Source: Chloroflexota bacterium
GTDB taxonomy: Bacteria; Chloroflexota; Chloroflexia; Chloroflexales; Roseiflexaceae
DNA length: 46,325 nucleotides
Reading direction: 5' to 3'
Assembly: GCA_013388755.1 (NCBI GenBank)
Contig: JACAEQ010000143.1
Location: 1 to 46,325, forward strand
Part shown: in pieces, positions 10,522 through 26,593 of the stretch
How the letters are laid out: each line of letters begins with the position of its first letter
Position numbering within the stretch: position 1 is the stretch's first letter
Notes under the pieces: generated by a model
Seen by the model: only the letters and a program-made list of their open reading frames with translations
Told to the model about the DNA's origin: nothing
Database searches by the model: none
Translations under genes and position numbers: made by a program

Positions 10522-13081
10522 CTGGCTCAAGCCGCACAATGGCGCGGTGTTCCAGCAGAATACCTTCCGGCGTCGTGACCCGCAGGCGTAGCGTGTACTC
10601 CCCCGGCGTACTCGTGCCGGTTGACCAGATCCCCAGAATGCCATCCGTCATCGCCGCACCCCGGGCGATGGTACGCCAGCCGGACCCCGGATCGCGTCCA
10701 TTGCCGATTTCAAGCGCATACACGCCGGCCGCAGTACCGCGCACATAGACTTGCGGCCCCCGCACAACGGTGCCGTCCACCGGTTGGGCAATGCGCGCAA
10801 TGCTCCCACCTTCACGCCCGGGCAGAGCATCCGGCGGCGGGCAGTACTGCTGCGGTGGCTGTGCAATACCGTTTGCAACCGCCCAGGCACGATACGGCGC
10901 CGGGTATGCAACAAACGTCACCTGGCGCACCTGTTCACGCGGCGTATACGATGCAGCCAGGCATGATCCATTGCCAGCCACAGCCACCGTCAGCAACGTG
11001 ATATCACTCGTGCGCGGCTCAGTACCGGCGATGAAACGCTCCATCACCGGGTGCGGGCAATCCGCGCTCGCCAGCGCGCCGGTATCGGCGCAGATCGTCG
11101 CTTCGCTGATGCCTGCTGGCCGTTCGAAGGTCAGGATCGGTCGCCCCTGATGGTAACGTTCCATTAGCGCGCGCCAGATCACACCAGCTCCATTCGACCC
11201 GGCGACTTCCTGCATCGGTGCATTGTCGTTATTGCCGACCCATACGCCAAGCGTGAGATCAGGCGTGTAGCCCACCGCCCATGAGTCGCGCCACTCATTA
11301 CTGGTGCCGGTTTTAGCGGCGACCGACCGTCCATCGCCAAGTTCCATGACATTATTCGGGCCGAACATGAAGTGGCGCGCTTCGTTGTCGCTCAAGATGT
11401 CGGTAATAAGATACGCGATCTGCTCGCCGTGTTCCCCAAGCACCTGCCGTCCTGGAGCATCGCTTGCCGTCTCAAGCACCTCACCACGGGCATTGGTCAC
11501 TTTCAGAATGGCAACCGGAGGCCGGTAGTGCCCACCATTGCGGAACGTGTTATAGGCGCCGGTGAGATCAAGCAATGTTACTTCACCAGCGCCAAGCGCC
11601 AGCGGCAGCCCATACCGCTCAGGATCATTCAGCGTTGTGATCCCCAGGCGATGCGCCAGCGCGACGAACGTGTCAACCCCGATATATTCGAGCGCCCGGA
11701 TGGCCGGAATATTGAGCGAGTTCGCCAGCGCCATTCGCAGACGTTGCGGCCCGTGGAACGCGTTGTCATAGTTACGTGGCGCGTACACTGTACTATCGCC
11801 GGCCGGGTATGTTACCGGCGTATCCCAGATGATCGTCGCCGGGGTCCAGCCACGCTGTAATGCCGCCGCATAGACGATCGGCTTGAGCGCAGAGCCTGGC
11901 TGCCGTGGCGCAAGCGTAACATTGACCTGCCCGTCAATCGCCAGATCGTTATAGTCAACACTGCCGACCATCGCGATAATCTGCGCATCGGGGGTGAGCA
12001 TCACAACGCCGGCATTCGTTGCATGACGTTCGCGCAACGGCGCATAGCCGGGTCCGCCCTCGCGCACCCACTGGCGTGCAATGCGTTCGGCCTCAGCCTG
12101 CCATGACGGATCGAGCGTGGTCACGACACGCAACCCGCCACGATGAAGCACGTCCGGTCCATACCGCTCCTCAAGCAACCGGCGCACATAGAAGACGAAA
12201 TGAGGCGCCGTCAGGTCGGTTTCGGCAGCGACAAAGCGCAGTGGTTCAGCAAAAACCTCCTGTGCCTTCTGTTCAGAGAGATAGCCATACTTCACCATCA
12301 GATCGAGCGTCGTGCGCTGGCGTTGCTTCGCGCCGGCAAGATTGTGCAGTGGGTTCAGGACGGTCGGAGATTGGGGCAGGCCGGCGAGCAAGGTGGCCTC
12401 ACCGGGTGACAGATCCTCGACATGTTTGCCGAAGTAGGCCTGGGCCGCCGCCTCGACACCGTATGCCTGGTTGCCGTAGTAGACCTCATTGAGGTAGATG
12501 CCGAGGATCTGTTCTTTGCTGTAGCGGCGCGCAACTTCAACCGCCAGAATCGCCTCGCGCAGTTTGCGCTCGAATGTGATGCGCGTGCGCTCTTCCGGCG
12601 GCAACAGGACATTGCGCACCAGTTGCTGCGTGATCGTGGAACCGCCGCTGACAACCTCGCCAGCCTGATAGTTGAGAATCAATGCGCGCAAAATGCCGCG
12701 CACATCAATCCCCGGGTTGGTATAGAACTCAGCGTCCTCGACGGCTACGGTTGCATCGGCAAGAATCTGCGGGATGCGCTCAAATGGAACCACCGTTCGT
12801 CTGCCGCTCTGCGGGTCAACCAGTTCGTAGAGTGGTGTGCCGTCACGCGCGTAGATGTACCCTGTTTCAGATGGACGATACCGCCCAATCTGTGCTGGAT
12901 CGGGCAGGTCGCGGCTATAGTAGCGGTAGGCGACGACGAGCCCGATCAGTACCAGTAGTGCGCTGATAAGCGTCACCTGCACACATGCGAGCAACAGACG
13001 CCAGAACAGGCGCAACGCCGAGCGACGCCGGCGAGGTGGAACAGGCGTCTCTTTCCTTCCGCTAGCGGGCCCAGCGAACAT
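10511..13081 (-). CDS. Class A penicillin-binding protein (PBP1A-like)
   Basis: A bifunctional peptidoglycan synthase of 856 residues. It has a cytosolic basic tail, a membrane anchor (about 30-52), and a glycosyltransferase domain with VEDAEFY (catalytic Glu115), GGSTITQQLVRN and ARRYSKEQILGIYLNEVYYG. The transpeptidase domain has SALK (Ser397, Lys400), SLN (Ser455) and KTGT (Lys590). The C-terminal 180 residues resemble the beta-sandwich tail found in PBP1C-type proteins (a GGSIARIAQPVDGTVV segment, then EYTLRLRVTTPEG). All catalytic residues are present, so the organism makes cross-linked peptidoglycan. Its end overlaps the convergent GGDEF gene by 11 nt. Confidence 0.95.
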   Translation of the reverse strand: MFAGPASGRKETPVPPRRRRSALRLFWRLLLACVQVTLISALLVLIGLVVAYRYYSRDLPDPAQIGRYRPSETGYIYARDGTPLYELVDPQSGRRTVVPFERIPQILADATVAVEDAEFYTNPGIDVRGILRALILNYQAGEVVSGGSTITQQLVRNVLLPPEERTRITFERKLREAILAVEVARRYSKEQILGIYLNEVYYGNQAYGVEAAAQAYFGKHVEDLSPGEATLLAGLPQSPTVLNPLHNLAGAKQRQRTTLDLMVKYGYLSEQKAQEVFAEPLRFVAAETDLTAPHFVFYVRRLLEERYGPDVLHRGGLRVVTTLDPSWQAEAERIARQWVREGGPGYAPLRERHATNAGVVMLTPDAQIIAMVGSVDYNDLAIDGQVNVTLAPRQPGSALKPIVYAAALQRGWTPATIIWDTPVTYPAGDSTVYAPRNYDNAFHGPQRLRMALANSLNIPAIRALEYIGVDTFVALAHRLGITTLNDPERYGLPLALGAGEVTLLDLTGAYNTFRNGGHYRPPVAILKVTNARGEVLETASDAPGRQVLGEHGEQIAYLITDILSDNEARHFMFGPNNVMELGDGRSVAAKTGTSNEWRDSWAVGYTPDLTLGVWVGNNDNAPMQEVAGSNGAGVIWRALMERYHQGRPILTFERPAGISEATICADTGALASADCPHPVMERFIAGTEPRTSDITLLTVAVAGNGSCLAASYTPREQVRQVTFVAYPAPYRAWAVANGIAQPPQQYCPPPDALPGREGGSIARIAQPVDGTVVRGPQVYVRGTAAGVYALEIGNGRDPGSGWRTIARGAAMTDGILGIWSTGTSTPGEYTLRLRVTTPEGILLEHRAIVRLEPVTP

Positions 13082-13221
13082 GACCTCTGTCTTTACGGCC
13101 AGCCGTCACACTGACGCCAGGTACAGCGTCAGCAGGGCGTCAGCTTCATATCACACACCGTACAGGCCGGATCAACGGCGGCAGGGATACACTGTCATTG
13201 AAGTATAGCATGGAGGGCACG

Positions 13222-13527
13222 ATGACAGCACTACTGGTTCTTGCAGCCGGCATTGCTGCGGCACTGGCAGCCTGCCGGTTCATCTGGCGCGAGCCGGTGG
13301 CAACCGGTGATCTCGCAATCGGGCTGGTTGGCGGCTTGATCGGGCTGATCATGGCGCGGCTATTCTCCGGCGACGGCTGGGGGCTGGCGTTACCCATTCT
13401 GGTCGCATGCGCCGGTTCGCTGGCATTGTCTGCAGTACGCCAGTCACCGCCGGCTGGCGTCGGGTCACGACCGGTCATCTATGACGGCCAGACCAGGCGG
13501 CTGGAGCGACAGGCGCGTCGCAGGTAA
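13222..13527 (+). CDS. Small membrane protein
   Basis: A 101-residue protein with three hydrophobic stretches (MTALLVLAAGIAAALAACRF at the N-terminus, then GLVGGLIGLIMARL, then LALPILVACAGSLALSAV) and a basic C-terminal tail. The ATG at 13222 is chosen because GGAGGG lies 4 nt upstream; an ATG at 13210 would place this site inside the gene. No family was recognised; the glycine-rich second helix is loosely like GlsB/YeaQ-type small membrane proteins. It stands alone between genes on the other strand. Confidence 0.6.
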   Translation: MTALLVLAAGIAAALAACRFIWREPVATGDLAIGLVGGLIGLIMARLFSGDGWGLALPILVACAGSLALSAVRQSPPAGVGSRPVIYDGQTRRLERQARRR

Positions 13528-13561
13528 TGGCTGGCGCGCATTGCGTGCCACGCAACTCTGC

Positions 13562-14386
13562 TTACGCCCCGAGCCAGGCGATCCATTCCTGTTCCAGTGT
13601 GGTGAGATCCTTACCATATACGCTGGCATACGCTGCTGAACCTGGATCGCCAGCACCGGTTATGTAGACCTGATCAAACATCTCACGCCCATAGACGCTC
13701 ATCAGGAACTCCACAAAACTGGCCCACTGGTAATAGAGCGCATTCATCTCACCAATGCTCCGCCCGGCATAATGGGTTGCGAGGGGATAGAAGACACCTC
13801 CGTCGCGCTGCGCGCGGACGTAGCTGCGAAAATCGGCGTGATCGCCAAGCCAGTATTCTCCCGCGGCCCAGGTCGCCATCCCCTCAGACAGGATGAGATC
13901 TGCGCTCAAGTGGCGCGAACCATAGCGATCATGCTGCAACTGGTGGATATATTCATGCGCCAGAATAGCAATCGCCCGGCCACTCGCCACACTATTGCAC
14001 GTCTGCACCTGGAGTGTACGCACATCCGTGTACGCAATGCCGCTCAATGCGCAGCCGGAGTCCTGCACGATGGCAACCGTCACCGGCGCGTTGAGTGTGC
14101 CGCCAAAGCGTGCGGAGGCATAGGCATAGGCGCGACGCACGCCGGCGTCTAGCTCGCCTCGTTCATTGCTATAGAGCCCGTCGTCAACAACGATATGCAG
14201 CAAGGCTGGATCGGCAGCCGGCACGGCCACCGCACCAATGGTCGGCACGGGCCGGTCGCTGGTGCCGTGGCCGGGCCAGCGCGACAACGTGACCGGCTGA
14301 TTCCGGCCGAAGAAGAGTAACGTGCCGCACACAGCCAGCACAACGATGAAGAGCATTCCAGGGGAACGCGAGCGTGAATGCATCAT
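13562..14386 (-). CDS. Membrane-anchored HExxH peptidase (peptidase MA-like)
   Basis: A 274-residue protein with an N-terminal hydrophobic anchor or signal segment (about 11-26) and an extracytoplasmic metallopeptidase domain. The zinc site is HEYIH (His144, Glu145, His148). Glu168 in LSEGMATWAAGEYW fits the third ligand of a gluzincin, as in the peptidase MA family. Cys112 and Cys130 could form a disulfide outside the cell. The substrate is unknown. The gene is divergent from mutM. A TGTTACAAT box ends 6 nt before the ATG, so the mRNA may be leaderless. The second codon is also ATG, so the start could be one codon later. Confidence 0.82.
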   Translation of the reverse strand: MMHSRSRSPGMLFIVVLAVCGTLLFFGRNQPVTLSRWPGHGTSDRPVPTIGAVAVPAADPALLHIVVDDGLYSNERGELDAGVRRAYAYASARFGGTLNAPVTVAIVQDSGCALSGIAYTDVRTLQVQTCNSVASGRAIAILAHEYIHQLQHDRYGSRHLSADLILSEGMATWAAGEYWLGDHADFRSYVRAQRDGGVFYPLATHYAGRSIGEMNALYYQWASFVEFLMSVYGREMFDQVYITGAGDPGSAAYASVYGKDLTTLEQEWIAWLGA

Positions 14387-14392
14387 GGCGCC

Positions 14393-14401
14393 ATTGTAAC
14401 A
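14393..14401 (-). promoter_or_regulatory. Extended -10 box of the peptidase gene
   Basis: TGTTACAAT on the minus strand, with TACAAT at 14398-14393. Six nucleotides separate it from the ATG at 14386, which would place transcription start at or next to the A of ATG. No good -35 was seen, as is common with TGn-extended -10 promoters. Confidence 0.55.
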
Positions 14402-14433
14402 TCTATCGCCAGCACCGTGCTGCCGCAGGGTGA

Positions 14434-14462
14434 TTGCGGCCAGGTACGAAGGCAGATATAAT
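14434..14462 (+). promoter_or_regulatory. mutM promoter
   Basis: TTGCGG at 14434-14439, a 17-nt spacer and a perfect TATAAT at 14457-14462. The ATG starts 7 nt after the last T, so the predicted transcript has no 5' leader. No ribosome-binding site could fit. Confidence 0.6.
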
Positions 14463-14468
14463 GCGCAT

Positions 14469-15293
14469 ATGCCTGAGTTACCCGAAGTTCAGCACGCTGC
14501 CGATAGTCTGGGGATTCAGATTGCCGGTGCGCGGATTGCCACGGTTGAGCGGCTCGATTGGCCGCGCATGGTCGAGACGCCTGCACCGGAGGAGTTTATC
14601 GTTCGGCTGGCCGGGCGTGAGATCCGCGGTTGGGGGCGGCGCGCCAAATGGATCCTGCTCGAACTCGATGGCGGCTGGACGCTGGCCTTGCATCTGCGCA
14701 TGTCGGGCAGCCTGACGGTGCATCCTGCCGATACTGAACCGGACAGGCATACACACCTGGTATTGCGCCTCACCGATGGTCGCCAGATCTTTTTCCACGA
14801 CACCCGCAAATTCGGGCGTGCGCGTCTCCTCGATGCTGCCGGGCTTGCAATGCTCAATGACGCCCATGGCGATGAGCCGTTATCAGAAGCGTTCACAGTT
14901 GAGCGCCTCGCCGGGCTCCTGCGCGGCCGGCAGCGCGCTATCAAGCCGTTGCTTCTCGATCAGTCGCTGATCGCCGGTATCGGCAACATCTATGCCGACG
15001 AAGCGCTGTGGTGTGCCCGGATTCACCCGCTGCACCCGGCCGCTGAGCTGAGCACCGAAGCGATCGCCGATCTCCACGCCGGCATTCGCGCGGTCCTGCG
15101 TCAGGCGCTGGCGAATGGCGGCAGCACCCTGCGCGACTACCGCAACTCGTATGGCGCACGCGGGACGAACCAGGATCACTTTCATGCCTACGATCGCGAA
15201 GGGCAGCCATGCCCGCGTTGTGGCACGATGATTGTGAAGACGGTGGTTGCGCAACGCGGCACCCACTATTGTCCGGCATGCCAGCGGAGATAG
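14469..15293 (+). CDS. mutM: Formamidopyrimidine-DNA glycosylase
   Basis: A DNA repair enzyme of 274 residues removing 8-oxoguanine and formamidopyrimidines, with AP lyase activity. The start MPELPEV is diagnostic: Pro2 is the catalytic nucleophile and Glu3 is essential. Also visible are [21 protein letters not shown], the helix-hairpin turn region [15 protein letters not shown], and a C-terminal zinc finger with CPRC and CPAC. The length is typical. The upstream in-frame extension is rejected because PELPE must follow the initiator. A perfect -10 box 6 nt before the ATG suggests leaderless translation. It ends 4 nt from a convergent membrane-protein gene. Confidence 0.97.
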
Positions 15294-15297
15294 CGAA

Positions 15298-15876
15298 TCA
15301 CTCGGTCAGCAACGCCCAGCCGCCACGGATCAACATCTCAGGTAGATAGGTCAGGATCAGGGCGGCAAGATACCCGCTCCACCAGGTTATATTGATGATC
15401 TGGCTGACGATCGGGGGCAACGAGGATGGAGCAGTGATACCGAGATAGGTCGTCAGGACATCAATACCATGTGTGAGAGCGAGCAGTACCAGCAACGCAA
15501 CCAGCTGCGAGGCGCCGCCGCGAATGTTGGGCCGTACATTGGCTTCGACATACGAGAAGATCAGGCCCAGTGGAACGAGAAGCAGGTTCCACCAGCCGGT
15601 GGGTGCAGCCACCCGTGCCGGCAATTCAAGGAATTGCGCGAGTAGATTAAGGCCGATCACAACGCCGTCAAGGGTGTACTTCGCACCTAGCGCCCACAGC
15701 GGCAAACCAAACGCCAGCATGAGCAACCCTGCGGGAGCACCGACACCAGCGCGCGCCGGCGGCTCGACGATCGGGTAGGGGGCGAACGCCCGACGCGGCG
15801 CCACCGCGGGCTGTCGTGGTTGCGGTCGGGCTGGCCGTTGCGGCGCCGATCCCAATGGTTTGCTCCGTACTGCCAC
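15298..15876 (-). CDS. Membrane protein with Pro/Arg-rich head
   Basis: A 192-residue hypothetical protein. The first 50 residues are basic and proline-rich (many RP, QP and PR pairs). Four hydrophobic helices follow: around AGLLMLAFGLPLWALGA, WWNLLLVPLGLIFSYVEA, LVALLVLLALTHGIDVLTTYLG and TWWSGYLAALILTYLPEMLI. The GTG at 15876 is preferred because AAGGAG lies 8 nt before it; a GTG at 15912 would overlap the preceding gene by 23 nt. It is probably co-transcribed with the larger membrane protein just upstream, which suggests that the pair works together. No family was recognised. Confidence 0.65.
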   Translation of the reverse strand: MAVRSKPLGSAPQRPARPQPRQPAVAPRRAFAPYPIVEPPARAGVGAPAGLLMLAFGLPLWALGAKYTLDGVVIGLNLLAQFLELPARVAAPTGWWNLLLVPLGLIFSYVEANVRPNIRGGASQLVALLVLLALTHGIDVLTTYLGITAPSSLPPIVSQIINITWWSGYLAALILTYLPEMLIRGGWALLTE

Positions 15877-15889
15877 GAATGATTCTCCT

Positions 15890-16846
15890 TCAGGCACGCT
15901 GGCGTGGCTCACTGCGCGTGGCGCGCGCGCGACGTAATGCGCGATATTCGGCCTCGCTTAATTCAACCATGCGCGATTGGCGCGCCGGCTCGCCGGTGCG
16001 CTCAGGCGCCCGCGCACCGGCCTCGCTCCGGTCAACAAGCTCATGGGTCGAAGGGTCGGTTAGCGTCCCCATTTGCAGGGTATCACCAATATATTCCAGA
16101 ATATCGCGGATGTCCTCATTGTCATCGAGCATGTTGTCGAATGGCAGTGCAACACCGGAGACCGTCTTCACCGTCTGGCCGACCTCCTTCAGCGTCCGGT
16201 CGATGCCGCTCACCAGCGACTGCATCACCGCCGCCAGTTCCTCGCGTTCCTGCACCGTCAGATTGGCAAAGCCGATGAGCGCCTTCTCCTGCGCCCGCAG
16301 CAGCGTCGCGCGCAGGATCGCAATATCCGCCTGGGTCTGCAACTCATAGCGCTTCACCAGGTGCGCCTGGCGCACCTGTTCCACCAGTTCATCGCTCGAC
16401 ACCGGCGTCCACAGCAATGCAGGAATCACGATGAAGCCGATCATACCGATCAGCACCTGCTGATAGACCAGGTTTGCATCGGCGACGACGGGTTGCGCGG
16501 CCCACCAGGCCCACTGGAGCTGGAAGGCATAGTAGAGCAGGTAGAGTGCGCACCCGATGATCACCGGGAAGGCCCAGGTGCGGGCATTGACCTTCTGCAG
16601 CAACATGCCGGCAGGCGACCAGGGAATGAGGAACGAGACCAGACTGGGCGGCGCGAGTACCAGGATGGCAGTGAAGGCAACGGCAACGATGCGGTTGTCG
16701 GTGAGTTGCGACTGGACGCCCCACCAGTAGGCGGCGGAGCCGGCCATGGCGACGAACGCCAGGATCGCCAGCAATGTCCGGGCCGTCATCTGCATGCCGG
16801 CAGGACGCCGGCGCTGTTGCCGAATCATGTCAAGGTAGTGTGACAT
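15890..16846 (-). CDS. Membrane protein with cytosolic coiled coil
   Basis: A 318-residue hypothetical protein. Four membrane helices at about 23-45, 53-75, 90-110 and 125-148 are followed by a long charged helical region (ELVEQVRQAHLVKRYELQTQ onward, about 160-235) and a disordered Arg/Glu-rich tail. The helical region suggests oligomerisation. An AGGGAAA lies upstream of the ATG. The next gene, also membrane-bound and with a basic disordered head, follows within 13 nt. No homologous family can be named from sequence alone. Confidence 0.7.
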   Translation of the reverse strand: MSHYLDMIRQQRRRPAGMQMTARTLLAILAFVAMAGSAAYWWGVQSQLTDNRIVAVAFTAILVLAPPSLVSFLIPWSPAGMLLQKVNARTWAFPVIIGCALYLLYYAFQLQWAWWAAQPVVADANLVYQQVLIGMIGFIVIPALLWTPVSSDELVEQVRQAHLVKRYELQTQADIAILRATLLRAQEKALIGFANLTVQEREELAAVMQSLVSGIDRTLKEVGQTVKTVSGVALPFDNMLDDNEDIRDILEYIGDTLQMGTLTDPSTHELVDRSEAGARAPERTGEPARQSRMVELSEAEYRALRRARATRSEPRQRA

Positions 16847-17184
16847 GGCGTGTTTCCCTGTGACGATTGTTGTGCTGGAACCATGGTAGACACGCGACGT
16901 TACTCGCCGGAACCGGATATCCGTCGAATCCTACCATTCATCGTGCCCGGGTTGCCTTGTTACCTGGTCGTTACACTACGTCAATCATGCCTGATGATCA
17001 GTAGCCGTACGATTGCGAAACTGGATCAATGTTGCACGCTACGGCAGCGCCTCGTAATCTCATCATGGCATCTCGCCACGCGGGGCGACTTCGAGAGATG
17101 GACCAGGTTGCCATACGGTCGTGGATGGTTGCGCGGCTGATCAGGATTGCAGCCGCCCCGCCGATCCGGTATAATCGAGGCAAT
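16847..17184. other. Gene-free spacer before tRNA-Arg
   Basis: Apart from the tRNA promoter at 17147-17175 nothing recognisable was seen. Short open frames here have no ribosome-binding site or protein-like composition. The spacer presumably also holds the promoter of the leftward membrane-protein pair. Confidence 0.6.
17147..17175 (+). promoter_or_regulatory. tRNA-Arg promoter
   Basis: TTGCAG at 17147-17152, a 17-nt spacer and TATAAT at 17170-17175. The -10 ends 9 nt before the mature tRNA 5' end, so the precursor would have almost no 5' leader. Confidence 0.75.
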
Positions 17185-17260
17185 GCCCCCGTAGCTCAGT
17201 GGATAGAGCGACGGTTTCCTAAACCGCAGGTCGGCCGTTCGAGTCGGCCCGGGGGCGCCA
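17185..17260 (+). tRNA. tRNA-Arg (anticodon CCT)
   Basis: A 76-nt cloverleaf. The acceptor stem GCCCCCG pairs with CGGGGGC, followed by discriminator G and an encoded CCA. The D-stem is GCTC/GAGC, and the T-stem GGCCG/CGGCC encloses loop TTCGAGT. The anticodon loop TTCCTAA gives CCT, which reads AGG. The anticodon stem pairs in four positions, with an A-C mismatch at 27-43. Confidence 0.95.
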
Positions 17261-17355
17261 CATCCCACCCACGATGATACCCGCCGGTATGCCGCACAAC
17301 AGCCGCGCCACCCATCAGCAAGTGCCATGTGGGGTGGCCTGGCGCATCATCAACG

Positions 17356-17552
17356 CCTCAGCAAGCAACGCGTACCTGGTACGAGTGATGTCCGGCAGCC
17401 ACACTGAAACCGAGCTGGTGACCGTCAGACCATATATTCATGTCCACGGTAGCGGGCCGCCAATCGCAGGTGACGTTCAAGACGGTTGCGCATCGGCAGA
17501 CGCGCCTCGTCATTCTCGATATTGCCGATGCGACAACCAGCATGTCCAGTAA
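17356..17552 (-). pseudogene. Decayed remnant of a second universal-stress domain (tentative)
   Basis: Directly after the stop of the Usp-like gene, the minus strand reads NIENDEARLPMRNRLERHLR, then LAARYRGHEYMV and a stop. This parallels LERNLRLARDLGAYIEV of the intact gene. In another frame, DGHQLGFSVAAGHHSYQVRV resembles the next block of such domains. At the DNA level a 23-nt stretch (GCCAATCGCAGGTGACGTTC on the plus strand near 17460) matches about 20 of 23 bases of the equivalent part of the intact gene near 17765. Frames are broken and no start is visible. It looks like a partial tandem copy in decay. Confidence 0.4.
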
Positions 17553-17996
17553 TCACATCGGCGCACCCGGCACCACGTCGATCACCACACTGACCGCGCG
17601 CCGGAGTCGCGTCACAATATCGCCACGGAGACGGCGAACCCATCCACCCGTATGCGGCTGGCCGATAATGATCCGTTGCACGCCGTGGTCGCGCGCAAAG
17701 CGTACGATCGAATCAACCACCTGGTGACTGTCAATCACCTCGATGTATGCACCAAGATCGCGCGCCAGTCGCAGGTTACGTTCAAGCTGAGCCGAGACCG
17801 CCGGCGCGCGCCGGGTACGAGCACCGGGCGGTTCGACATGTAACGCCAGCAATTCCGCGCCAAGCTCGACTGCAACCTGTGCAGCGCGCCGAATCACCTC
17901 CTGCGATCCAGCGCCCTCGCCAATACACGCAAGAATCGATGGAGAGCCGCTTCGATGCTCCATGTCCATGCCCATCCCACTTGCCATGCAGACCAT
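17553..17996 (-). CDS. Universal-stress (KdpD-type Usp) domain protein
   Basis: About 147 residues. The domain begins ILACIGEGAGSQEVIRRAAQ and continues GAELLALHVEPP, LERNLRLARDLGAYIEVIDS, SIVRFARDHGVQRIIIGQPH and a basic GGWVRRLRGDIVTRLRR segment. This order resembles the Usp domain of the KdpD sensor kinase rather than free-standing UspA proteins, but the histidine-kinase part is absent. The start is ambiguous: ATG codons at 17996, 17987, 17975, 17969 and 17963 are all in frame, and none has a strong ribosome site. The frame begins 5 nt after the stop of the P-type ATPase homologue, so it is the last gene of that operon. A nucleotide-binding sensor role for the ATPase homologue is inference. 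Confidence 0.75.
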   Translation of the reverse strand: MVCMASGMGMDMEHRSGSPSILACIGEGAGSQEVIRRAAQVAVELGAELLALHVEPPGARTRRAPAVSAQLERNLRLARDLGAYIEVIDSHQVVDSIVRFARDHGVQRIIIGQPHTGGWVRRLRGDIVTRLRRAVSVVIDVVPGAPM

Positions 17997-18001
17997 CGCC
18001 G

Positions 18002-20791
18002 TTATACCGCATCCTGCACAGCTTCACGCGTACGGCGATACCATTTGAAGAGTTCGTCGGCCAGCAGCATGATGAACGGGTAACATGCCAGCAATATCCA
18101 GTGCTCAGGATGCGGCGGCACGAACCCCAGGAGCGTTGCCAGGGGCTCGACATAGACCAGCACCAGCATCAACCCGAACGAAGTGATCGTTCCCGCGACC
18201 AGGGCACGATTCGTGAACGGGCCAAGCTGAAACAGTGAATAGCGTCGCGTCCGGCTGGCAAATGCCGTGCCGAGCTGCGCCATCACAATCGCCATATAGG
18301 TCAGTGTCGTCGCCTGAGCATAGATGTCGCCGCTGCTGGCCAGCAGCATCCCCGGGCGCCATCCGGCACTCCAGTAGGCCATGAAGAAAGAAAACAACGC
18401 GAGTGCGCCCTCCAGCATACCAAGCAGCGCAAATGTACGCCACAACGTCTCGCGATCCAGCAAGGGCGCGGTGCGGGATCGCGGCGGCTGGGCCAGGATG
18501 CCCGGCTCAGGCGGTTCCGTGCTGAGCGCGACCGACGGCAACAACTCCGTACCAACATCAATCGCCAGCACCTGCAATACCGTGAGCGGGATCGGCAACC
18601 CGAACACCACACTGACGACGATGACGGCGGCTTCGGCGACATTGTGCGCGAAGATGTAGGCCGCCAGTTTCTGAATATTGGCAAAGATCGCCCGGCCTTC
18701 TTCAACCGCCAGGAGTAATCCGGCAGGATGCTGGGCATTGAGGACGATATCAGCAGCGGCCACTGCCACGGCGGTGCCGGAAGCGCTGACCGCTACGCCA
18801 ATATCTGCCTGGCGCAGCGCTGGCGCATCGTTGATGCTGTCACCCAGGAATGCAACCACCTCGCCGCGCTGTTGCAGCGCCTCAACGATCCGTTGTTTCT
18901 GCGCGGCGTCCATCTGGGCAAACACCACATCCTCCAGTGGAGCAAGCAGCAAGCCGAGGCTGGCGCTACTCATGGAGTCGAGATCGGCGCCGGTCACGAT
19001 CTGGTTGCGGGGTGTATCGATCAGGCCGGCACGGCGCGCTCCCGCCTCGGCGGTCAGCCCGTACGCCCCCGTCACAACAATGATCCGAATGCCAGCTTTA
19101 TGACACCCCTCGACCAGCCGGGTAACCTCGGGCTGGGGCGGCTCCTGCAACGCGGCCAGGCCGAGGAATGTCAGATCATCCTCGATATCGCGCGCCCGCC
19201 AGGCCATCCCATCCGTTGGCTCATCGAGGCGACGCGACGCAAATGCCACCACACGCTGACCTGCGCGGGCAAAGTCATCGATCTGCCGTTCGATCTCCTG
19301 TCGCGCCTGATCGTCGAGATCTTCCTCCGCACCACGACGTCCCAGGCGCGTACAGAGCGGCAGGATCGCTCGCGCTGTGCCGCGCACATAGGCAATCAGA
19401 TCGCGCCCGTCAGGGCGCTCAATGGCAACAACAACGCTGGCAAGCTGGCGGCGCGGCTCGTAGGGGAAACTTTGCAGTCGCACCGTTTCCGCGGCAAGCG
19501 TGGCAGTATCGAATCCCGCGCGCGCCGCGGCAACCAGCAACGCACCCTCGGTCGGATCGCCCACAATGTACCAGTCGGGATGGCCGGCATCGGGAGGCAT
19601 CAAGCGCGCATTATTGCACAATGCTGCGGCGCGCAGCAGCGCCGCCAGGTCTGGCTCGGCCGCCGCGCGCACCAGCGTACGCCCGCGTAAGAACGCGCCT
19701 TCGGGCCGGTAATCGCTGCCGGTCACGGTGTAACGTTGCCCGCCAGCCCACAGACCATTTGCCGTCAGGATGCCGCTGCTCAACGTTTCAGCGCGATCGA
19801 CGCACAGCACCGTCGCTGAACTGAGACTCTCGACACCGGCAAGGCGGCGCACCAGCACACCATGGCGCGCCAGCCGGCGACGAGCCAGCGCCAGCGCGAG
19901 GGTCACCGTCGGCAGCAACCCTTCCGGCACAAACGCAACGATCATACCGATCGCGAAGATAATGCCGGCCTGAATGGAAAATTGTCGCCCCAGCACGGTC
20001 AGGGCGAACGCGCCGATACCGGCAAGGATCGCCACCCGGGTAATCGTGGCGGCCAGAGCATTCAGCGCGCGACCAAGCGGGCTTGGTTCGGCGCGTAGCG
20101 ACACGGTGCTTTCCGCGATATGGCCAAGCAACCGCTGCATACCGGTAGCGACGACCACCAGGCTACCCTGGCCCTCGAACACAATCGTGCCCGCCAGCAC
20201 CAGATTGGGGCGCTCCGTCAGCGACAGGGTCGGATCCGGCATGGGGCCAGCGACTTTGGTCACCGGCGCAGCGTTGCCTGTCAGTGCCGTCTGTTTGACG
20301 CGCAATCCTTCGCTGGCAATCAGGTAGCCGTCGGCCACCACCACGGTACCCGGGCGCAACGGCAGGATATCTCCTGGAACCACATCAACGGTCGGAACCT
20401 GGCGCACCTGGCCGGCGCGCCGTACATAGGTCGTTGCCGGAAGCAAGCGGCGGAGCGCAGCGATCGCGCGCTCCGCCAGGTATTCCTGCCACGCCGTGAA
20501 GAGGCCATTTACGAGGGCAACAATCAGAATGACCCAGCCGATGACCGGGGTATCGCTGAGGAAGGCCAGCAGGCCGGCAACCACCAGGATGAGCGAGATC
20601 CAGTTGACAAAGGAGGAAACGAGCCGATGCACCGTGGAGACGGGCAGGCCTTCGCTCAACACATTCGGGCCATAGCGCTCGCGGCGAACGGACGCCTCAG
20701 CTTCGTCGAGACCGTGGGGAGCGGTCTGCAATTCGGCGCAGACCTCGAGCGGCAACAGCGCCGCAAGTTGATCCAGCGGGCGGTCCGACAC
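18002..20791 (-). CDS. P-type ATPase homologue with degenerate catalytic motifs
   Basis: A 929-residue integral membrane protein with the full domain order of a type II/IIC cation pump: N-terminal actuator, membrane helices, PEGLLP in M4 (289-294), P and N domains, then M5-M10 with LAIDVGTELLPSVALS, which recalls the Na,K-ATPase M6 region. Key motifs differ from consensus. TGES is TGNA (171-174), DKTGTLT is DRAETLS (332-338; Asp kept, Lys lost), KGA is RGT (470-472), DPPR is EPPQ (550-553), and TGD is TGA (574-576). GDPTEGALL (411-419) and GDSINDAPAL (650-659) are kept. The frame is intact and the composition normal, so decay to a pseudogene is unlikely; a non-pumping or regulatory role is inferred. 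The GTG start has GAGGA 7 nt upstream, 30 nt after nuoE. Confidence 0.9.
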   Translation of the reverse strand: MSDRPLDQLAALLPLEVCAELQTAPHGLDEAEASVRRERYGPNVLSEGLPVSTVHRLVSSFVNWISLILVVAGLLAFLSDTPVIGWVILIVALVNGLFTAWQEYLAERAIAALRRLLPATTYVRRAGQVRQVPTVDVVPGDILPLRPGTVVVADGYLIASEGLRVKQTALTGNAAPVTKVAGPMPDPTLSLTERPNLVLAGTIVFEGQGSLVVVATGMQRLLGHIAESTVSLRAEPSPLGRALNALAATITRVAILAGIGAFALTVLGRQFSIQAGIIFAIGMIVAFVPEGLLPTVTLALALARRRLARHGVLVRRLAGVESLSSATVLCVDRAETLSSGILTANGLWAGGQRYTVTGSDYRPEGAFLRGRTLVRAAAEPDLAALLRAAALCNNARLMPPDAGHPDWYIVGDPTEGALLVAAARAGFDTATLAAETVRLQSFPYEPRRQLASVVVAIERPDGRDLIAYVRGTARAILPLCTRLGRRGAEEDLDDQARQEIERQIDDFARAGQRVVAFASRRLDEPTDGMAWRARDIEDDLTFLGLAALQEPPQPEVTRLVEGCHKAGIRIIVVTGAYGLTAEAGARRAGLIDTPRNQIVTGADLDSMSSASLGLLLAPLEDVVFAQMDAAQKQRIVEALQQRGEVVAFLGDSINDAPALRQADIGVAVSASGTAVAVAAADIVLNAQHPAGLLLAVEEGRAIFANIQKLAAYIFAHNVAEAAVIVVSVVFGLPIPLTVLQVLAIDVGTELLPSVALSTEPPEPGILAQPPRSRTAPLLDRETLWRTFALLGMLEGALALFSFFMAYWSAGWRPGMLLASSGDIYAQATTLTYMAIVMAQLGTAFASRTRRYSLFQLGPFTNRALVAGTITSFGLMLVLVYVEPLATLLGFVPPHPEHWILLACYPFIMLLADELFKWYRRTREAVQDAV

Positions 20792-20821
20792 GATATTCCT
20801 CGCGAACAGATCGCGGTTCTA

Positions 20822-21346
20822 TCACTGTTCTGCGTAACGCCCCGAGATGCTGAGCTTCTCGCCGGACTCTGCGCGCCGGCGCAACGCCGCCAGCAACTGA
20901 TCAACCTGTTGCGGCGTCGTCAGGTCGCGATGGTACTCAAGGTTGGCCTGCAACAGCGGCGCGTGATTACAGTCGGCCAGGCATTTGACACGCTGCAACG
21001 TAAACATGCCATCGGCTGTCGTCTGATCAACCGTGATGCCAAGCCGTTCCTGGATCGTGGCGATCAACTCCTCGGCGCCGCAGAATGCGCAGGGTACATC
21101 ATCGCACACTTGCAGCACCCATCTGCCAACCGGCTGCTCATAGAGCAACGAGTAGAATCCAGCCACCTCAAAGACATCGGTTGGCGGCAGATCCAGGATG
21201 GTAGCGACTTCGCGCATGGCCGCATCCGTCAGGTAACCGTACTCATCCTGGGCGAGGTACAGCAGCGGCAACACGGCACTCCGCTTCTGCGGGTACCGCG
21301 CGATGATGGCGTCAATTTCAGCGCCAGACTTTTCGAGCAGTGACAT
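20822..21346 (-). CDS. nuoE: NADH-quinone oxidoreductase subunit E
   Basis: The 24-kDa-type subunit of complex I (174 residues), a thioredoxin-like fold carrying the [2Fe-2S] cluster N1a near FMN in the NADH module. Ligands are Cys81, Cys86, Cys122 and Cys126 (CDDVPC and CLADC). VFEVAGFYSLL and the GYLTDAAM helix are typical. The ATG at 21346 is preferred over a GTG at 21382, which would extend the protein by 12 non-conserved residues. It is the last nuo gene here. Its normal partner nuoF does not follow; a P-type ATPase homologue does. Confidence 0.95.
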   Translation of the reverse strand: MSLLEKSGAEIDAIIARYPQKRSAVLPLLYLAQDEYGYLTDAAMREVATILDLPPTDVFEVAGFYSLLYEQPVGRWVLQVCDDVPCAFCGAEELIATIQERLGITVDQTTADGMFTLQRVKCLADCNHAPLLQANLEYHRDLTTPQQVDQLLAALRRRAESGEKLSISGRYAEQ

Positions 21347-21388
21347 CGAATGGCTCTCACACGTCAGGGTAAAGCGGAGCACCGGCGA

Positions 21389-22642
21389 TCAGCGGTCAAC
21401 TTCGCCCAGGATCGGATCCATCGAAGCGATCAGCGCCACCAGGTCGGCAACCAGATGGCCACGCGCCATATAGGGCAACGCCTGAAGGTTGGCGAACGAC
21501 GGCGCGCGAAAATGTACCCGGTACGGCTTCGGGCTGCCGTCGCTCACAATATAGGTGGCAAGTTCGCCGCGCGGCGACTCGACCGCTGCCAGCGCATCGC
21601 CACGCGGTGGCCTGAACCCTTCGGTCCACAGCTTGAAATGATGAATGAGCGCCTCCATGCTGTGGGTAATTTCACTCTTTGGCGGCGGCGCGATCTTGCG
21701 ATCCAGCGTCATATATGGCCCCGGGCCATGATCCTTCAGGCGCTGCAATGCCTGGCGGCAGATCGAAACGCTCTCGCGCATTTCCGCCATACGCACCAGG
21801 TACCGGTCGTAAATATCGCCGTGGGTCGCAGTAGGAATGGCGAAGGAATAGTGCTCGTAGCCGCAATACGGCATGCTCTTGCGCAGATCCCAGGCCACGC
21901 CGGCGGCGCGCAGGCCCGGGCCGGTCAACCCGAAGGCAATCGCCGCTTCGCCATCAATCGCGCCAATCCCCTGCGTGCGCTCGATCCAGAGCGGATTATC
22001 GGTCAACAGCTGCTCATACTCATCGATCCGGCCCGGCATCACCTGCAGGAACGCCGCAACCGCATCTTCGAACTCCGCAGGCAGATCGTAGGCCAGCCCG
22101 CCGACGCGGAAATAACTGGTCATCATGCGCGCACCGGAGACCAGTTCAAAGATATCGAGAATCTGCTCACGCTCGCGAAATCCGTACAGGAACACACTCA
22201 TGGCCGCCAGGTCGAGTGCGTGGGTGCCGAGCCAGACCAGGTGGCTGGAGATGCGCTGCAACTCAACGAGCAGCACACGTGCGATCGTGGCGCGTTCAGG
22301 AACATCACAGCCGAGCAACTTTTCGACCGCCAGCACATAGCTGAGATTATTGGAGAGTGGCGCCAGGTAGTCGGTACGATCGGTGAGCACGACGGCCTTC
22401 TGGTACGTCTTGCTCTCCATCGTCTTTTCGATGCCGGTGTGGAGAAAGCCGATATCAGGAGCAACATCCACAACCGTCTCGCCATCGAGTTCGACGACCA
22501 GCCGCAGGACCCCATGCGTACTCGGGTGGTGCGGCCCCATGTTGAGCACCATCGTCTCTTTCGCCCCTGCGAGTGCCGGGCGCGTGATCTGACTGGGCGC
22601 GGGGATGGTCAAGGCGCGGGGGGGTGATGGAGCGACTGTCAT
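21389..22642 (-). CDS. nuoD: NADH-quinone oxidoreductase subunit D
   Basis: The 49-kDa-type peripheral-arm subunit of complex I (417 residues), related to the large subunit of NiFe hydrogenases but without the metal cysteines. It helps form the quinone site: GPHHPSTHGVLRL contains the conserved His, and DRTDYLAPLSNN contains the quinone-contact Tyr. Other blocks are GFLHTGIEK, RISSHLVWLGTHALD, TGPGLRAAGVAWDLRKSMPY and ESPRGELATYIVSDGSPKPY. The C-terminal VDR is typical. A GAGTGAG site precedes the ATG, which is 6 nt after the nuoC stop. Confidence 0.97.
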   Translation of the reverse strand: MTVAPSPPRALTIPAPSQITRPALAGAKETMVLNMGPHHPSTHGVLRLVVELDGETVVDVAPDIGFLHTGIEKTMESKTYQKAVVLTDRTDYLAPLSNNLSYVLAVEKLLGCDVPERATIARVLLVELQRISSHLVWLGTHALDLAAMSVFLYGFREREQILDIFELVSGARMMTSYFRVGGLAYDLPAEFEDAVAAFLQVMPGRIDEYEQLLTDNPLWIERTQGIGAIDGEAAIAFGLTGPGLRAAGVAWDLRKSMPYCGYEHYSFAIPTATHGDIYDRYLVRMAEMRESVSICRQALQRLKDHGPGPYMTLDRKIAPPPKSEITHSMEALIHHFKLWTEGFRPPRGDALAAVESPRGELATYIVSDGSPKPYRVHFRAPSFANLQALPYMARGHLVADLVALIASMDPILGEVDR

Positions 22643-22648
22643 CGAAAC

Positions 22649-23173
22649 TCACTCTCTGGCAAACGGCTTATGGGCGTAGATCCGTTCCTGATTGAAGGTA
22701 AAGGCGACCTCTTCCGCCCCGAGCGGCACATCTTTCCGCAGCGGATACCCTTCCCAATCATCGGGCATCAAGATACGGTCGAGGCATGGATGGCCGGTAA
22801 AGACGATACCAAACATGTCAAATGTTTCACGCTCGTGATAATTGGCGCCCGGCCACAACCCGGTCAGTGAAGGCACCGACGGGTTATGCTCTGCGACGCC
22901 AACCTTCAGGCAGATCCGGTGCCGGTTGGTAAAGGAGAGCACGTGATAAACGACTTCAAAGCGCGGCTCACGGCCAGAATAGTCAACGCCGCACAGATTC
23001 TCGAGGAAGTTATAGCGTAACGCCGGATCATCGCGCAGGAAACGCGCCACATCAACGATCCTGGCAGGCCGGACGAAAACGCTCAGATCGCCGCGAAACT
23101 CGGCCGACCCGGTGATCGCGTCAGGCAGGGCAGTGCGCAGGCGTGTCAGGACAGTATTGTTCTCAATGGTCAC
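22649..23173 (-). CDS. nuoC: NADH-quinone oxidoreductase subunit C
   Basis: The 30-kDa-type peripheral subunit of complex I (174 residues). The family signature is [20 protein letters not shown] followed by [18 protein letters not shown]. It contacts NuoD and NuoB below the quinone pocket. The start is a GTG at 23173, supported by GGAG 6 nt upstream. It is separate from nuoD rather than fused as in enterobacteria. The 59-nt spacer between nuoB and nuoC holds no clear promoter, so it is read with the operon. Confidence 0.96.
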
Positions 23174-23232
23174 GTGTTTCTCCAGCCACAGACGCGCCTG
23201 CCCTTCTGGCGAGTGCCTCGGCAGGCATACCG

Positions 23233-23733
23233 CTATGATTGCGTCGGCTCGCGCAGCGATCCATCGAGCCGCATCCGCTTGACTTTTTCGTGCAACAGCA
23301 TGATCCCGTCAATCAGCGCCTCAGGGCGCGGCGGGCAACCAGCAATATATACGTCCACCGGCACGATCTCGTCAACTCCCTGGACGATCGCATAATTGTT
23401 GAACACCCCGCCGCATGCAGCGCAGTCGCCCATTGCAATCACCCATTTCGGATCGGACATCTGGTCATACAGGCGGCGCACGACCGGCGCCATTTTGCGC
23501 GAGACGCGCCCGGCGACAATCATCAGGTCGGCCTGGCGGGGCGACGCGCGGTTAATCTCCATACCGAAGCGCGACAGGTCATAGTTCGCACCCTGCGCGC
23601 CCATCATTTCGATCGCGCAGCAGGCCAGCCCGAAGAGCAGGGGCCACATCGCGTTCGAACGGCTCCAGTTCACCACCTGCTCCAGCGACACGGTGACGAT
23701 GCCCATATCGCCGGCTTTTTGCTCTATTCCCAC
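23233..23733 (-). CDS. nuoB: NADH-quinone oxidoreductase subunit B
   Basis: The PSST-type subunit (166 residues), carrying the terminal [4Fe-4S] cluster N2 that passes electrons to quinone. Ligands are the tandem Cys38-Cys39 (LACCAIEM), Cys104 (GDCAACGG) and Cys133 (AGCPPRPE); the spacings of 65 and 29 residues match the family. The GTG at 23733 is preferred because AGGAG lies 7 nt upstream, which makes the gene overlap nuoA by 10 nt. Alternatives are a GTG at 23754 and an ATG at 23706. The overlap suggests translational coupling with nuoA. Confidence 0.96.
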
Positions 23734-24080
23734 TCCAGTGCTCCTCGCCGCCACTCATATATCATGCCAATCACCAGCACAACAAAGAACACCCCCATGG
23801 CCGCCAGGCCGGGTACGCCGAGTTGCTTATAGACCAGGGCATACGGAAACAGGAAGATGACTTCGATGTCGAACAGGATGAAGAGCATCGCCACGAGGTT
23901 GAACTTTACCGGGAAGCGACGCTGCCCGGGGCCGATCGGCTCCATGCCGGACTCGTACGGCATCAACTTGCGCCGTGTCGGGCGTTGCGGCCCCAGGTAC
24001 CGCGACAGCACTATCACGAAGACGGCCACGAACAACGCGACCAGCAACATCACCAGGATAGGTAGATAGTCCGCAAGCAT
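23724..24080 (-). CDS. nuoA: NADH-quinone oxidoreductase subunit A
   Basis: A small membrane subunit of complex I (118 residues) with three membrane helices: [40 protein letters not shown] and the last [20 protein letters not shown]. The loop motif [11 protein letters not shown] and [12 protein letters not shown] are the family hallmarks; the acidic residues of the loop reach towards the quinone site. The ATG at 24080 has AGGGAG upstream; an earlier in-frame start would add 11 residues. It is the first gene of the leftward nuoABCDE operon, with a strong promoter about 80 nt upstream. Confidence 0.96.
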
Positions 24081-24163
24081 CCAGGGCTCCCTGGCCGGCA
24101 GGTACGCACGCAATCGTTCTGCGTGGCGACATCTTCCGTGCCCTAGCAGTATCCGGCCCAGGC

Positions 24164-24191
24164 ATTATACGACCTTCCAGGGTTGTGTCAA
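24164..24191 (-). promoter_or_regulatory. nuo operon promoter
   Basis: On the minus strand TTGACA (24191-24186) and TATAAT (24169-24164) are both perfect sigma-70 hexamers separated by 16 nt. The predicted leader is about 75 nt. An inverted GTAC...GTAC pair with a 7-nt spacer lies just upstream of the -35. This strong constitutive-type promoter would serve nuoA-E, the ATPase homologue and the Usp gene. Confidence 0.8.
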
Positions 24192-24449
24192 GAAGTACAA
24201 AGTATGTACGTGTTCGCACATCGCGAAAGCGTGTTTCTTTACGTCGGCGGGGCGACGTGACATGGCGCCTGCGCAAGCGCTACCGCCGCCGATTCATTCT
24301 CCCGGGGGCTTCCCCCAGACCCCAAGCGTGACCACGCAACCCGGCACACGCCGTGATTCGTCGCCGCAATCAGCAGATAGCCGGTCAGGCATGGCGCGAT
24401 CGCGACACGAATCCCGATGGCGCATCCCCGTTGCGGTCACCTGTCGGCA
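24192..24449. other. Spacer between the nuo promoter and the GH gene
   Basis: No gene was recognised. A GGGGG-CTT-CCCCC hairpin at 24304-24316 lies downstream of the leftward glycosidase gene. It lacks a T tract, so it is at best a weak terminator. Confidence 0.5.
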
Positions 24450-26483
24450 TCACCATTCCAGCGCCACCATCTGATGCCCGTTCAGCAGCGGCAACGTGAA
24501 CGACACGCGACCTTGCGCGATCTGGAACGGCAGTTCGACGCCTTCGGGCGCGGTGACGACGCGCCGCACCCCGACCGGCGCGAGGACGGAAACTCTCAGG
24601 TTGTGGAGCGGAATAACATCTTCGATGACATCGAAATCCATGCCGCGCCGTTCGGGAACATAGTGCAGCAGGTGGATCACCCGGCGGTGTTCTGCCGGTT
24701 GCTCCATCAGTGTGGCAAACAGTGTGCCCGGCCCATCATGGCGCAACAGCGGCTCGGGCAGCAGTAACGCGATCGCGTTCAGTACCAATCGTTTGCACCA
24801 GCGCGGCGCGTTCTGCGCATACTGGCTGAAGACCGGCTGCGAGAAGTAGATGGCCGATCCGCGGCGGACAATCGCCGGCCCGCGCGTTATCCCCGACGAC
24901 GGTGTCTGACGGTGCGAGCAGAAGTGCTGGTAGGTCCGATCAAAGAACGACGCCACTGTGTCGGCCAGCACGTCGGCATCGGCAGCGGCGCGCACCTCCA
25001 GGCCACGCATGTACATCACGTGTTCGGTCAGCGGCATACCCGCGCCGATCGCCGGGCCAGGGCGAAGATATTCCACATAATCGCCAGCGGGGAAGTGCCG
25101 CCCGCGCACCAGCCTGCCCTGCGCGTCGCGCGGCCCTTCGCCGGCCAGTTCGACACCCAGCGCCGCCAGAGCAAAGCGCCGCTTATCCGGCGCAAGCCCG
25201 GATTCAAACGAAGCGATCAACGCGCCACCGGCGGCCAGATACTCCTCCAGCCTGGCAGCCAGCGCCGGAGCGACCGGAATGGTGTCGGGCAGGATCACCA
25301 GTTTGTAGGCGCTGAAATCGGCGTGGCTGTCAACGATATCGAACTGGTGGCCGCCCTCGTCGAGGATACGCTCCACACCCATCGTCGCCTGCGGCACGCG
25401 GCCACCCTCGGGCCCGGCAAACTCTTCCGGCGAGAGCACAGCAATATCGTTGAGCGGGCGCGCGCCGCGGCACCAGGGTTCTTTCTGCTCGACGCGACGA
25501 TAGACCGCACCAATCAGGTCGTACACCACCGGCTCGATCGCGCCCGAGGGCGGCAACTGATCGCCGATACTGCATTTCGCGCCCAGCGCCAGCATGCGAA
25601 AGCACTCATACTCCAGCGCCGCCTGGTTTTGGAACGAGTGGAAATCACCCCAGGAGGTGTGGAACTTGCCGGTCATACCGAGACACTCATGGCCAAGGGT
25701 GCGCGCATAGCGCTGGGCCACCGGAAAGTGCAGGTAGCCCCAGCCGCCGCTGGGCAGGCTTTCGAGTTCCCAATGAGTATAGGCCGCGGCAGTGGCCCGG
25801 TCGCGCGTACCGACATGGCCGGCGTTGTAGAAGATCGTGCACTCCGAATTGAACTGCCGGACAAACGCGGTCATCTCGCGCTTGAAGTCATCAATCATGC
25901 GCTGGCCGTAAGCCTGGCGATCGGCCAGGTTCGCCGGATCCATGCCCAGTGCGACCATCGCGGCGCGGCAGTGACGGCAGGCACACGGCAGCGGGTGAAC
26001 AATGTCGAAGAACAGGCCGTCAACCGGCAGGGTTTCCAGCACCTCGCGGGTATGTGCCTTGAGGAAGTCGCGGTAGGGCGAGTTCACGCACAGGCGCCGG
26101 TAAAAGCCGGCCTCGAACGGTGGCGTGCCGAATGGACGCCCCTGATCATCAATTGCCAGCCACTCCGGGTGGGCATTGGCACTGAAATGATCCCACTGCA
26201 CCGTAATGTAGATCGGCACGCGAATATCATGAGCGTGGCACGCCTCGATCTGCCGGCGCAACAGATCGGTCCGCAGATGGGGATGGCGGCGTTCGGGATT
26301 GAGCACGCTGTCATAGTAGAGCCAGCCATGGTGGCAGCGCGCGAAACAGGTGATCGAGTCGACGCGTGCGCGCGCCAGGGTGCCGGCGAACACATCGGGG
26401 TCGAACGCCGCGCCGATACCGGCGATCTGTTCGCTGGTATGGAAGTCGAGGTGAACCTGTCGAAAGCGCAATTCGCTGGGCAT
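24450..26483 (-). CDS. GHL6-like glycoside hydrolase
   Basis: A 677-residue putative glycoside hydrolase. The N-terminal TIM barrel (to about 340) has the RQVHLDFHTSEQIAGIGAAF opening and the DGLFFDIVHP strand with a following CACRHC cluster (residues 155-172), typical of the GHL6 family. A middle region (YKLVILPDTIPVAPALAARL, then YLAAGGALIASFES) resembles the trimerisation domain of GH42 beta-galactosidases. The C-terminal part is beta-rich. There is no signal peptide, so it is probably cytosolic; substrate unknown, with alpha-fucosidase-like or beta-galactosidase-like activity both possible. The ATG at 26483 has AAGGA upstream, and a -10 box lies 52 nt before it. Confidence 0.82.
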   Translation of the reverse strand: MPSELRFRQVHLDFHTSEQIAGIGAAFDPDVFAGTLARARVDSITCFARCHHGWLYYDSVLNPERRHPHLRTDLLRRQIEACHAHDIRVPIYITVQWDHFSANAHPEWLAIDDQGRPFGTPPFEAGFYRRLCVNSPYRDFLKAHTREVLETLPVDGLFFDIVHPLPCACRHCRAAMVALGMDPANLADRQAYGQRMIDDFKREMTAFVRQFNSECTIFYNAGHVGTRDRATAAAYTHWELESLPSGGWGYLHFPVAQRYARTLGHECLGMTGKFHTSWGDFHSFQNQAALEYECFRMLALGAKCSIGDQLPPSGAIEPVVYDLIGAVYRRVEQKEPWCRGARPLNDIAVLSPEEFAGPEGGRVPQATMGVERILDEGGHQFDIVDSHADFSAYKLVILPDTIPVAPALAARLEEYLAAGGALIASFESGLAPDKRRFALAALGVELAGEGPRDAQGRLVRGRHFPAGDYVEYLRPGPAIGAGMPLTEHVMYMRGLEVRAAADADVLADTVASFFDRTYQHFCSHRQTPSSGITRGPAIVRRGSAIYFSQPVFSQYAQNAPRWCKRLVLNAIALLLPEPLLRHDGPGTLFATLMEQPAEHRRVIHLLHYVPERRGMDFDVIEDVIPLHNLRVSVLAPVGVRRVVTAPEGVELPFQIAQGRVSFTLPLLNGHQMVALEW

Positions 26484-26534
26484 GGTGATGCTTCCTTGCA
26501 AACCTGGAGAGGTGATGGACCAGAACGCGTTGCC

Positions 26535-26543
26535 ATTATAGCA
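26535..26543 (-). promoter_or_regulatory. Extended -10 box of the GH gene
   Basis: TGCTATAAT on the minus strand, with TATAAT at 26540-26535. A CTGACC about 18 nt upstream could be a weak -35. The predicted leader is about 45 nt and holds the AAGGA ribosome site. Confidence 0.6.
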
Positions 26544-26593
26544 TCCGCGTCTGCGCTCGGTCAGCGGCTTCAGCGAATGGCCGCGTGGTTCAT

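Follow-up and report, generated by a model that had tools for sequence, protein, structure and literature searches.

The stretch of DNA analysed here (the window, 46,325 nucleotides, the complete contig C81 of G000, a 5.08 Mb genome) encodes a full-length relative of the Na,K-ATPase alpha subunit which, judging from its substituted motifs, has very probably lost catalytic activity. P-type ATPases are obligate phosphoenzyme pumps, and pseudoenzymes are well known among kinases. The protein would be an IIC-like (Na,K-ATPase-like) descendant that has lost the phosphoenzyme cycle and is maintained by selection, and we propose that it acts as a cation-responsive pseudo-pump, namely a K+ or Na+ sensor or regulator working with a Usp-like partner (rough probability 0.45). 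It must be stressed that catalytic death is much better supported than any single role.

The pseudo-pump gene encodes 929 aa, starts with GTG and has no internal stops. The start codon lies 30 nt after nuoE and is preceded by the ribosome-binding-like sequence GAGGAAT.

18002..20791, minus strand: pseudo P-type ATPase, type II/IIC-like, with a full-length fold (Pfam, NCBIfam and PDB searches)

Pfam matches above cut-off were obtained for the cation ATPase N-terminal, E1-E2 ATPase, nucleotide-binding, HAD and C-terminal domains, and the order of E1-E2_ATPase, cation ATPase N/C and HAD places the protein by descent in the superfamily. In NCBIfam it scored 188.6 bits with TIGR01494 (cut-off 62.3), while it failed the cut-off of the type IIC family TIGR01106 (404 vs 946 bits), as does an intact bacterial paralogue (582 bits). 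The best PDB sequence matches were Na,K-ATPase alpha subunits (E 5e-110). The AlphaFold2 model (pLDDT 83.1, pTM 0.71) matched H,K-/Na,K-ATPase with Z 45 in an alignment of 907 residues; it is E2-like in look, which is not taken as evidence for a state. The genome also contains an IIC-like paralogue (G000:C8:134852-137644) of the same architecture and 43-44% identical over the whole length, in which, unlike in the pseudo-pump, DKTGTLT, the A-domain GE, KGA, DPPR, TGD and GDGVND are intact.

Orthologues were sought among 100 relatives and in the contigs of genomes, a search that covered 26 genomes of the family Roseiflexaceae. The pseudo-pump was found in 10 of these 26 genomes, belonging to four genera: the window genome, six Roseiflexus, G002, G005 and G008. 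Identity to the window protein was 78-80% in Roseiflexus, 56-58% in G002 and G008, and 59-64% in G005, where the gene is split over two contigs. The orthologues have TGNA, RG, EPPQ, TG[AG]YGL, GDS and DR-x-[ED]-x-L in common, and these substitutions were absent from all 59 comparators; additional Chloroflexota pumps, fetched as possible intermediates, had intact DK[TS]GT. The first-pass annotation had suggested a distinct clade, and in the tree the relatives with the same degenerate motifs do group together, with 100% SH-aLRT support and 99% when only transmembrane columns were used and the catalytic motifs were left out. No further members appeared among the listed top matches in the class (158 genomes) and in a sample of the phylum (400 genomes), where all other listed matches were below about 860 bits, and the contig search gave the same loci plus distant pumps only. 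Close relatives, in which normal DKTGT and TGES would indicate an assembly error, share the degenerate motifs. An assembly or consensus error was rejected, since the motifs recur in ten separate assemblies, that of the window included, one of them a single-contig genome.

The positions considered in the catalytic centre, nearly all of them altered, are the following.

20270..20281, minus strand: TGES replaced by TGNA (A domain, residues 171-174), Glu to Asn in 9/9 clade sequences covering the site
19778..19798, minus strand: DKTGTLT replaced by DRAETLS (P domain, residues 332-338), Asp332 present in the window and Asn in G012
19460..19462, minus strand: Tyr444, aromatic like Phe475, the adenine-stacking residue of Na,K-ATPase at this position, mapped from the PDB-match alignment
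19373..19384, minus strand: KGA replaced by RGT (N domain, residues 470-472), Lys to Arg clade-wide
19133..19144, minus strand: DPPR replaced by EPPQ (residues 550-553), fixed in the clade
19064..19072, minus strand: TGD replaced by TGA (residues 574-576), with Gly instead in G002, G005 and G008
18896..18916, minus strand: hinge segment (residues 626-632), conserved Arg626 changed to Gln, Lys632 retained
18827..18844, minus strand: GDGxND replaced by GDSIND (residues 650-655), Gly to Ser fixed, Asn to Ser in G002, G005 and G008

The losses in TGNA, DRAETLS, RGT, EPPQ and TGA described in the first-pass annotation were thus all recovered at their positions, with one correction: in DRAETLS the Lys and Gly are indeed gone, but the Thr following the Gly (Thr336) persists in the window and in Roseiflexus, and it is the first Thr that is lost, while the last has become Ser. 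Similarly, GDPTEGALL, listed there as retained, is present in the window, but it is not a feature of the clade, most orthologues having GDPLEGALL or GEPLEGALL. Neither the phosphorylatable Asp in a DKTG[TS] context nor the dephosphorylation glutamate of TGE is found in the pseudo-pump, and the nucleotide and Mg2+ motifs TGD, DPPR, KGA and GDGxND are represented in the clade by TGA/TGG, EPPQ, RG[TAN] and GDS[IV][NS]D. Seven catalytic positions were changed to clade-fixed residues (E173N, K333R, K470R, D550E, R553Q, R626Q and G652S), together with further fixed single-residue replacements (T649L, G669S, E678A, N688H and I692L), while position 576 (D) is A or G, position 335 (G) is E or D, and one orthologue carries D332N. 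As many of the lost positions have passed to one fixed residue, the pattern looks like a single shift followed by constraint rather than drift.

The surroundings of the acceptor (K, T, G), the TGD and DPPR motifs (Mg2+/ATP), KGA (ATP) and the dephosphorylating Glu all serve the phosphoenzyme cycle. Because these are lost, a Post-Albers cycle is unlikely. It must be considered, nevertheless, that Asp332, Lys632, Asp651 and Asp655 are retained in most clade members, the window included, and that the adenine-stacking position is aromatic (Y/F) across the clade, so that nucleotide might be bound without hydrolysis. The same residues weigh to some extent against the sensor reading, as ATP binding or slow phosphorylation would be compatible with them, and they are what an active pump with an altered cycle would rely on, in which Asp332 would be phosphorylated using Arg333 in place of Lys and dephosphorylation would be slow or take an alternative route. 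We regard such a pump as decidedly improbable, given the replacement of the TGES Glu, the TGD Asp, the Asp and Arg of DPPR and the KGA Lys, and given that the acceptor itself is Asn in G012 (codon AAT, in a contig with 395x coverage according to the record title). In addition, as indicated below, the rate of evolution of the DKTGT segment is 8 times that of its counterpart in the intact paralogue.

Selection was estimated as dN/dS between orthologues by the Nei-Gojobori method. The values for the pseudo-pump were 0.036-0.12, far from the value near one that would speak for decay, compared with 0.076-0.148 when the intact IIC paralogue of these species was analysed; pairs with the window have dS > 1 and are rough, and those within Roseiflexus are mostly sound. 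In the analysis by segments, which used whole-gene dS, the DKTGT segment had a dN/dS of 0.111 in the pseudo-pump, being its second fastest part, whereas the paralogue, in which no part is slower, gave 0.014. The opposite was obtained for the A domain (0.027 in the pseudo-pump vs 0.066 in the paralogue), M3-4 (0.019 vs 0.044) and P2 (0.034 vs 0.054), M3-4 being the most constrained segment of the pseudo-pump. Therefore, the constraint on the phosphorylation loop appears relaxed and the remainder of the protein held. A pseudogene or a gene in decay was rejected on these values. The patchy distribution in the family (10/26 genomes searched) is what a gene decaying towards loss, or an artefact of assembly, might give, but the chance of either is next to negligible when the frame is intact in all members, dN/dS is that low, and the same fixed replacements are found down to 56% identity in separate assemblies.

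The part of the protein that is preserved includes the cation site of the membrane domain.

19910..19927, minus strand: M4 motif PEGLLP (residues 289-294), cation site, retained
18632..18646, minus strand: M5 HNVAE (residues 716-720), cation site, Asn717 and Glu720 invariant
18545..18559, minus strand: M6 DVGTE (residues 745-749), cation site, Asp745 invariant, Glu749 equivalent to Asp808
18275..18277, minus strand: M8 Gln839, invariant in the clade and the comparators

The M6-like IDVGTE (744-749) had been pointed out previously and is present. The IIC-type ligands of M4, M5 and M6 are all found (E290, N717, E720, D745 and E749, with Glu for Asp808), and together with Q839 they are invariant in every clade member with data and in L082, the nearest outsider described below. 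When the positions invariant in the 59 comparators were considered, retention in the clade was 19/21 for the membrane domain and 18/20 for the A domain, vs 41/70 for the P and N domains taken together (membrane vs P+N, Fisher p = 0.008). Like the Na,K- and H,K-ATPase alpha subunits (P2C, type IIC), the pseudo-pump therefore combines the full-length fold with ligands at equivalent M4, M5, M6 and M8 positions; unlike them, it carries substituted catalytic motifs in its A, P and N domains. Since both the membrane site and the relay formed by the A domain and P2 are under selection, ion binding and conformational change seem to retain importance for the protein.

The main rival to a sensor starts from the same site. 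In a gated leak or channel, K+ or Na+ would pass through it passively, the opening being controlled by the cytosolic domains or by the Usp-like protein. All cation ligands and the M4 PEGLLP are kept, the most constrained part is M3-4, and palytoxin can convert the Na,K-ATPase into a channel, all of which would suit this function. Nevertheless, we consider it rather unlikely, as no specialised gate or pore change is seen in the sequence and a membrane that depends on complex I could ill afford an ungated leak.

The pseudo-pump lies near the end of a possible operon, with the following elements.

24164..24191, minus strand: promoter-like TTGACA-16-TATAAT (12/12, sigma-70-like) upstream of nuoA, from a consensus scan only
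21389..24113, minus strand: nuoD, nuoC, nuoB and nuoA, part of a split second complex I cluster
20822..21382, minus strand: nuoE, directly upstream of the pseudo-pump
17553..17996, minus strand: KdpD-Usp-like protein (147 aa in the gene call), 5 nt beyond the stop codon of the pseudo-pump, with a Pfam Usp match

The order nuoA-B-C-D-E, pseudo-pump and Usp-like protein is found in the window and in six of six Roseiflexus genomes, with a spacing of 22-30 nt between nuoE and the pseudo-pump. The site at 24164-24191 suggests a single nuoABCDE-pseudo-pump-usp transcript, and the consensus scan gave no other promoter-like site on the minus strand between it and the Usp gene. A tRNA gene (17185-17257, plus strand) is convergent with the operon end, and apart from a tRNA no Rfam element was found in 13000-27500. 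Upstream of nuoA there is a large GHL6/glycosyl-hydrolase-42-type protein (24450-26666, minus strand), missing there in the compared Roseiflexus loci. In G000, a second cluster with nuoH and more complex I-like genes is located on contig C21, apart from nuoABCDE.

This arrangement, in particular the constant nuoABCDE immediately upstream at short spacing, raises the possibility that the protein regulates the NADH dehydrogenase encoded there, or another pump, or serves either as a structural partner. The linkage, however, is limited to Roseiflexus and the genus of the window: the pseudo-pump loci of G002, G005 and G008 showed no nuo gene, and the nuoABCDE genes of these three genomes, as well as those of G001 and G006, have no pseudo-pump downstream (the G008 contig stops inside nuoE). 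Regarding another pump, a required partnership with the IIC paralogue is unlikely because the search gave no close IIC paralogue for G012 or for G002. Both an obligatory complex I partner and an obligatory helper of the IIC paralogue were consequently lowered, and we hold a partner role of this kind to be quite unlikely. A window protein without Pfam match (15890-16846, minus strand) has an 86% homologue downstream of nuoE in G005, which fits an insertion event in the lineage of Roseiflexus that placed the pseudo-pump/usp pair after nuoE.

The association with the Usp-like gene is wider. This gene follows the pseudo-pump in eight genomes (the window, six Roseiflexus and G005, where it is close behind), and in the genomes searched a close homologue of its product occurs only beside a pseudo-pump. 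It was not beside the pseudo-pump in G002 and G008, which counts against the sensor reading in that the partner is either not obligatory or encoded elsewhere. The similarity is to the Usp domain of KdpD rather than to UspA/FG: NCBIfam gave KdpD (E 8.6e-17), and for the Roseiflexus orthologue KdpD 7ji4 was the only PDB sequence match. The consensus of the c-di-AMP-binding KdpD Usp domain is (A/G/C)-X-S-X-S-X2-N-(Y/F) (PMC8214093). Binding of c-di-AMP by the partner was rejected, as the window protein has C-I-G-E-G and those of Roseiflexus C-I-S-E-E, and the lack of this consensus is a further point against the sensor reading. ATP binding was likewise rejected, since in G-X2-G-X9-G-(S/T) the first Gly is kept and the others are not.

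A link with potassium is also given by the nearest outsider to the clade, L082/L032 of G029, a genome of the same order, which was placed there with 99-100% support and a long branch. In L082, DKTGTLT, DPPR, TGD and GDG are intact, with TGTS for TGES and EGA for KGA, and it has Q626, L649 and L692 in common with the clade, so it is a possible evolutionary intermediate. In its locus (L108, G029:C10:10000-27000), L082 lies between regulators of the KdpD/KdpE type and KdpA; the cluster comprises two DUF4118 histidine kinases, two response regulators, an APC permease and KdpA, and is followed by a fragment called KdpB-like from its position (24% identity to the pseudo-pump by tblastn). With L082 in a Kdp cluster and the pseudo-pump beside a KdpD-Usp-like gene, both branches would be tied to Kdp-type potassium control, in different ways, although the sister link depends on long branches, which weakens it as an argument for a sensor. 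The resemblance to the KdpD Usp domain and KdpFABC thus has two sides, the match of the small co-encoded protein and the position of L082 beside KdpA and KdpD-type kinases. Unlike KdpD, the Usp-like protein is stand-alone, without a kinase, and no KdpA match was found in the window genome; the KdpA matches of Roseiflexus are weak and, from their size, probably TrkH-like.

The first-pass annotation had proposed an evolved pseudo-pump, which these results support, with a regulatory, scaffold or channel-like role. In attention to the above indicated, the ligands that are retained, the partner of KdpD-Usp type and the sister in a Kdp cluster speak for a function in sensing or passing ions rather than for a bare scaffold. 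From the sequence, we infer the loss of phosphorylation, the cation identity, the sensing role and the contact with the partner. In the proposed sensor, a cation, presumably K+ or Na+, would bind the transmembrane site and make the membrane domain switch between an E1-like and an E2-like shape, and the conserved A domain and the second half of the P domain would pass this change to the cytosol. The most plausible receiver would be the co-encoded KdpD-Usp-like protein, and the pair would report or adjust the cation status. More tentatively, the clade may be a receptor-like pseudo-pump family, in which the Na,K-ATPase fold would have become a phosphorylation-independent cation sensor signalling via the KdpD-Usp-like protein; its origin might have been stepwise, the TGES Glu and the KGA Lys being lost first in a Kdp-linked ancestor, as in L082, and then the whole catalytic centre.

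P-type-like proteins without ATPase activity or with pump-independent functions are already known in eukaryotes. Human TMEM94/ERMA has a P-type fold without the TGES motif, and its ATPase activity was undetected in one study (PMC12134183), while it has also been described as an ER Mg2+ ATPase (PMC13322241). This nearest parallel is thus eukaryotic and disputed, its domain make-up differs from that of the pseudo-pump, and orthology is not claimed. The C. elegans CATP-1 has a pump-independent function (PMC11631496) and, unlike the pseudo-pump, keeps the D-K-S/T-G-T motif. In the literature searched, which was limited in scope, no description of a bacterial pseudo-P-type ATPase clade was found.

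A clade that has shed its catalytic centre, with the ion site preserved by selection, would represent a case in nature where ion binding has been uncoupled from transport driven by ATP, and it makes the role of the ion site and the A domain without phosphorylation testable. In this regard, the partner gene and the Kdp-linked sister lead to a concrete hypothesis on potassium homeostasis in these relatives of thermophilic phototrophs.
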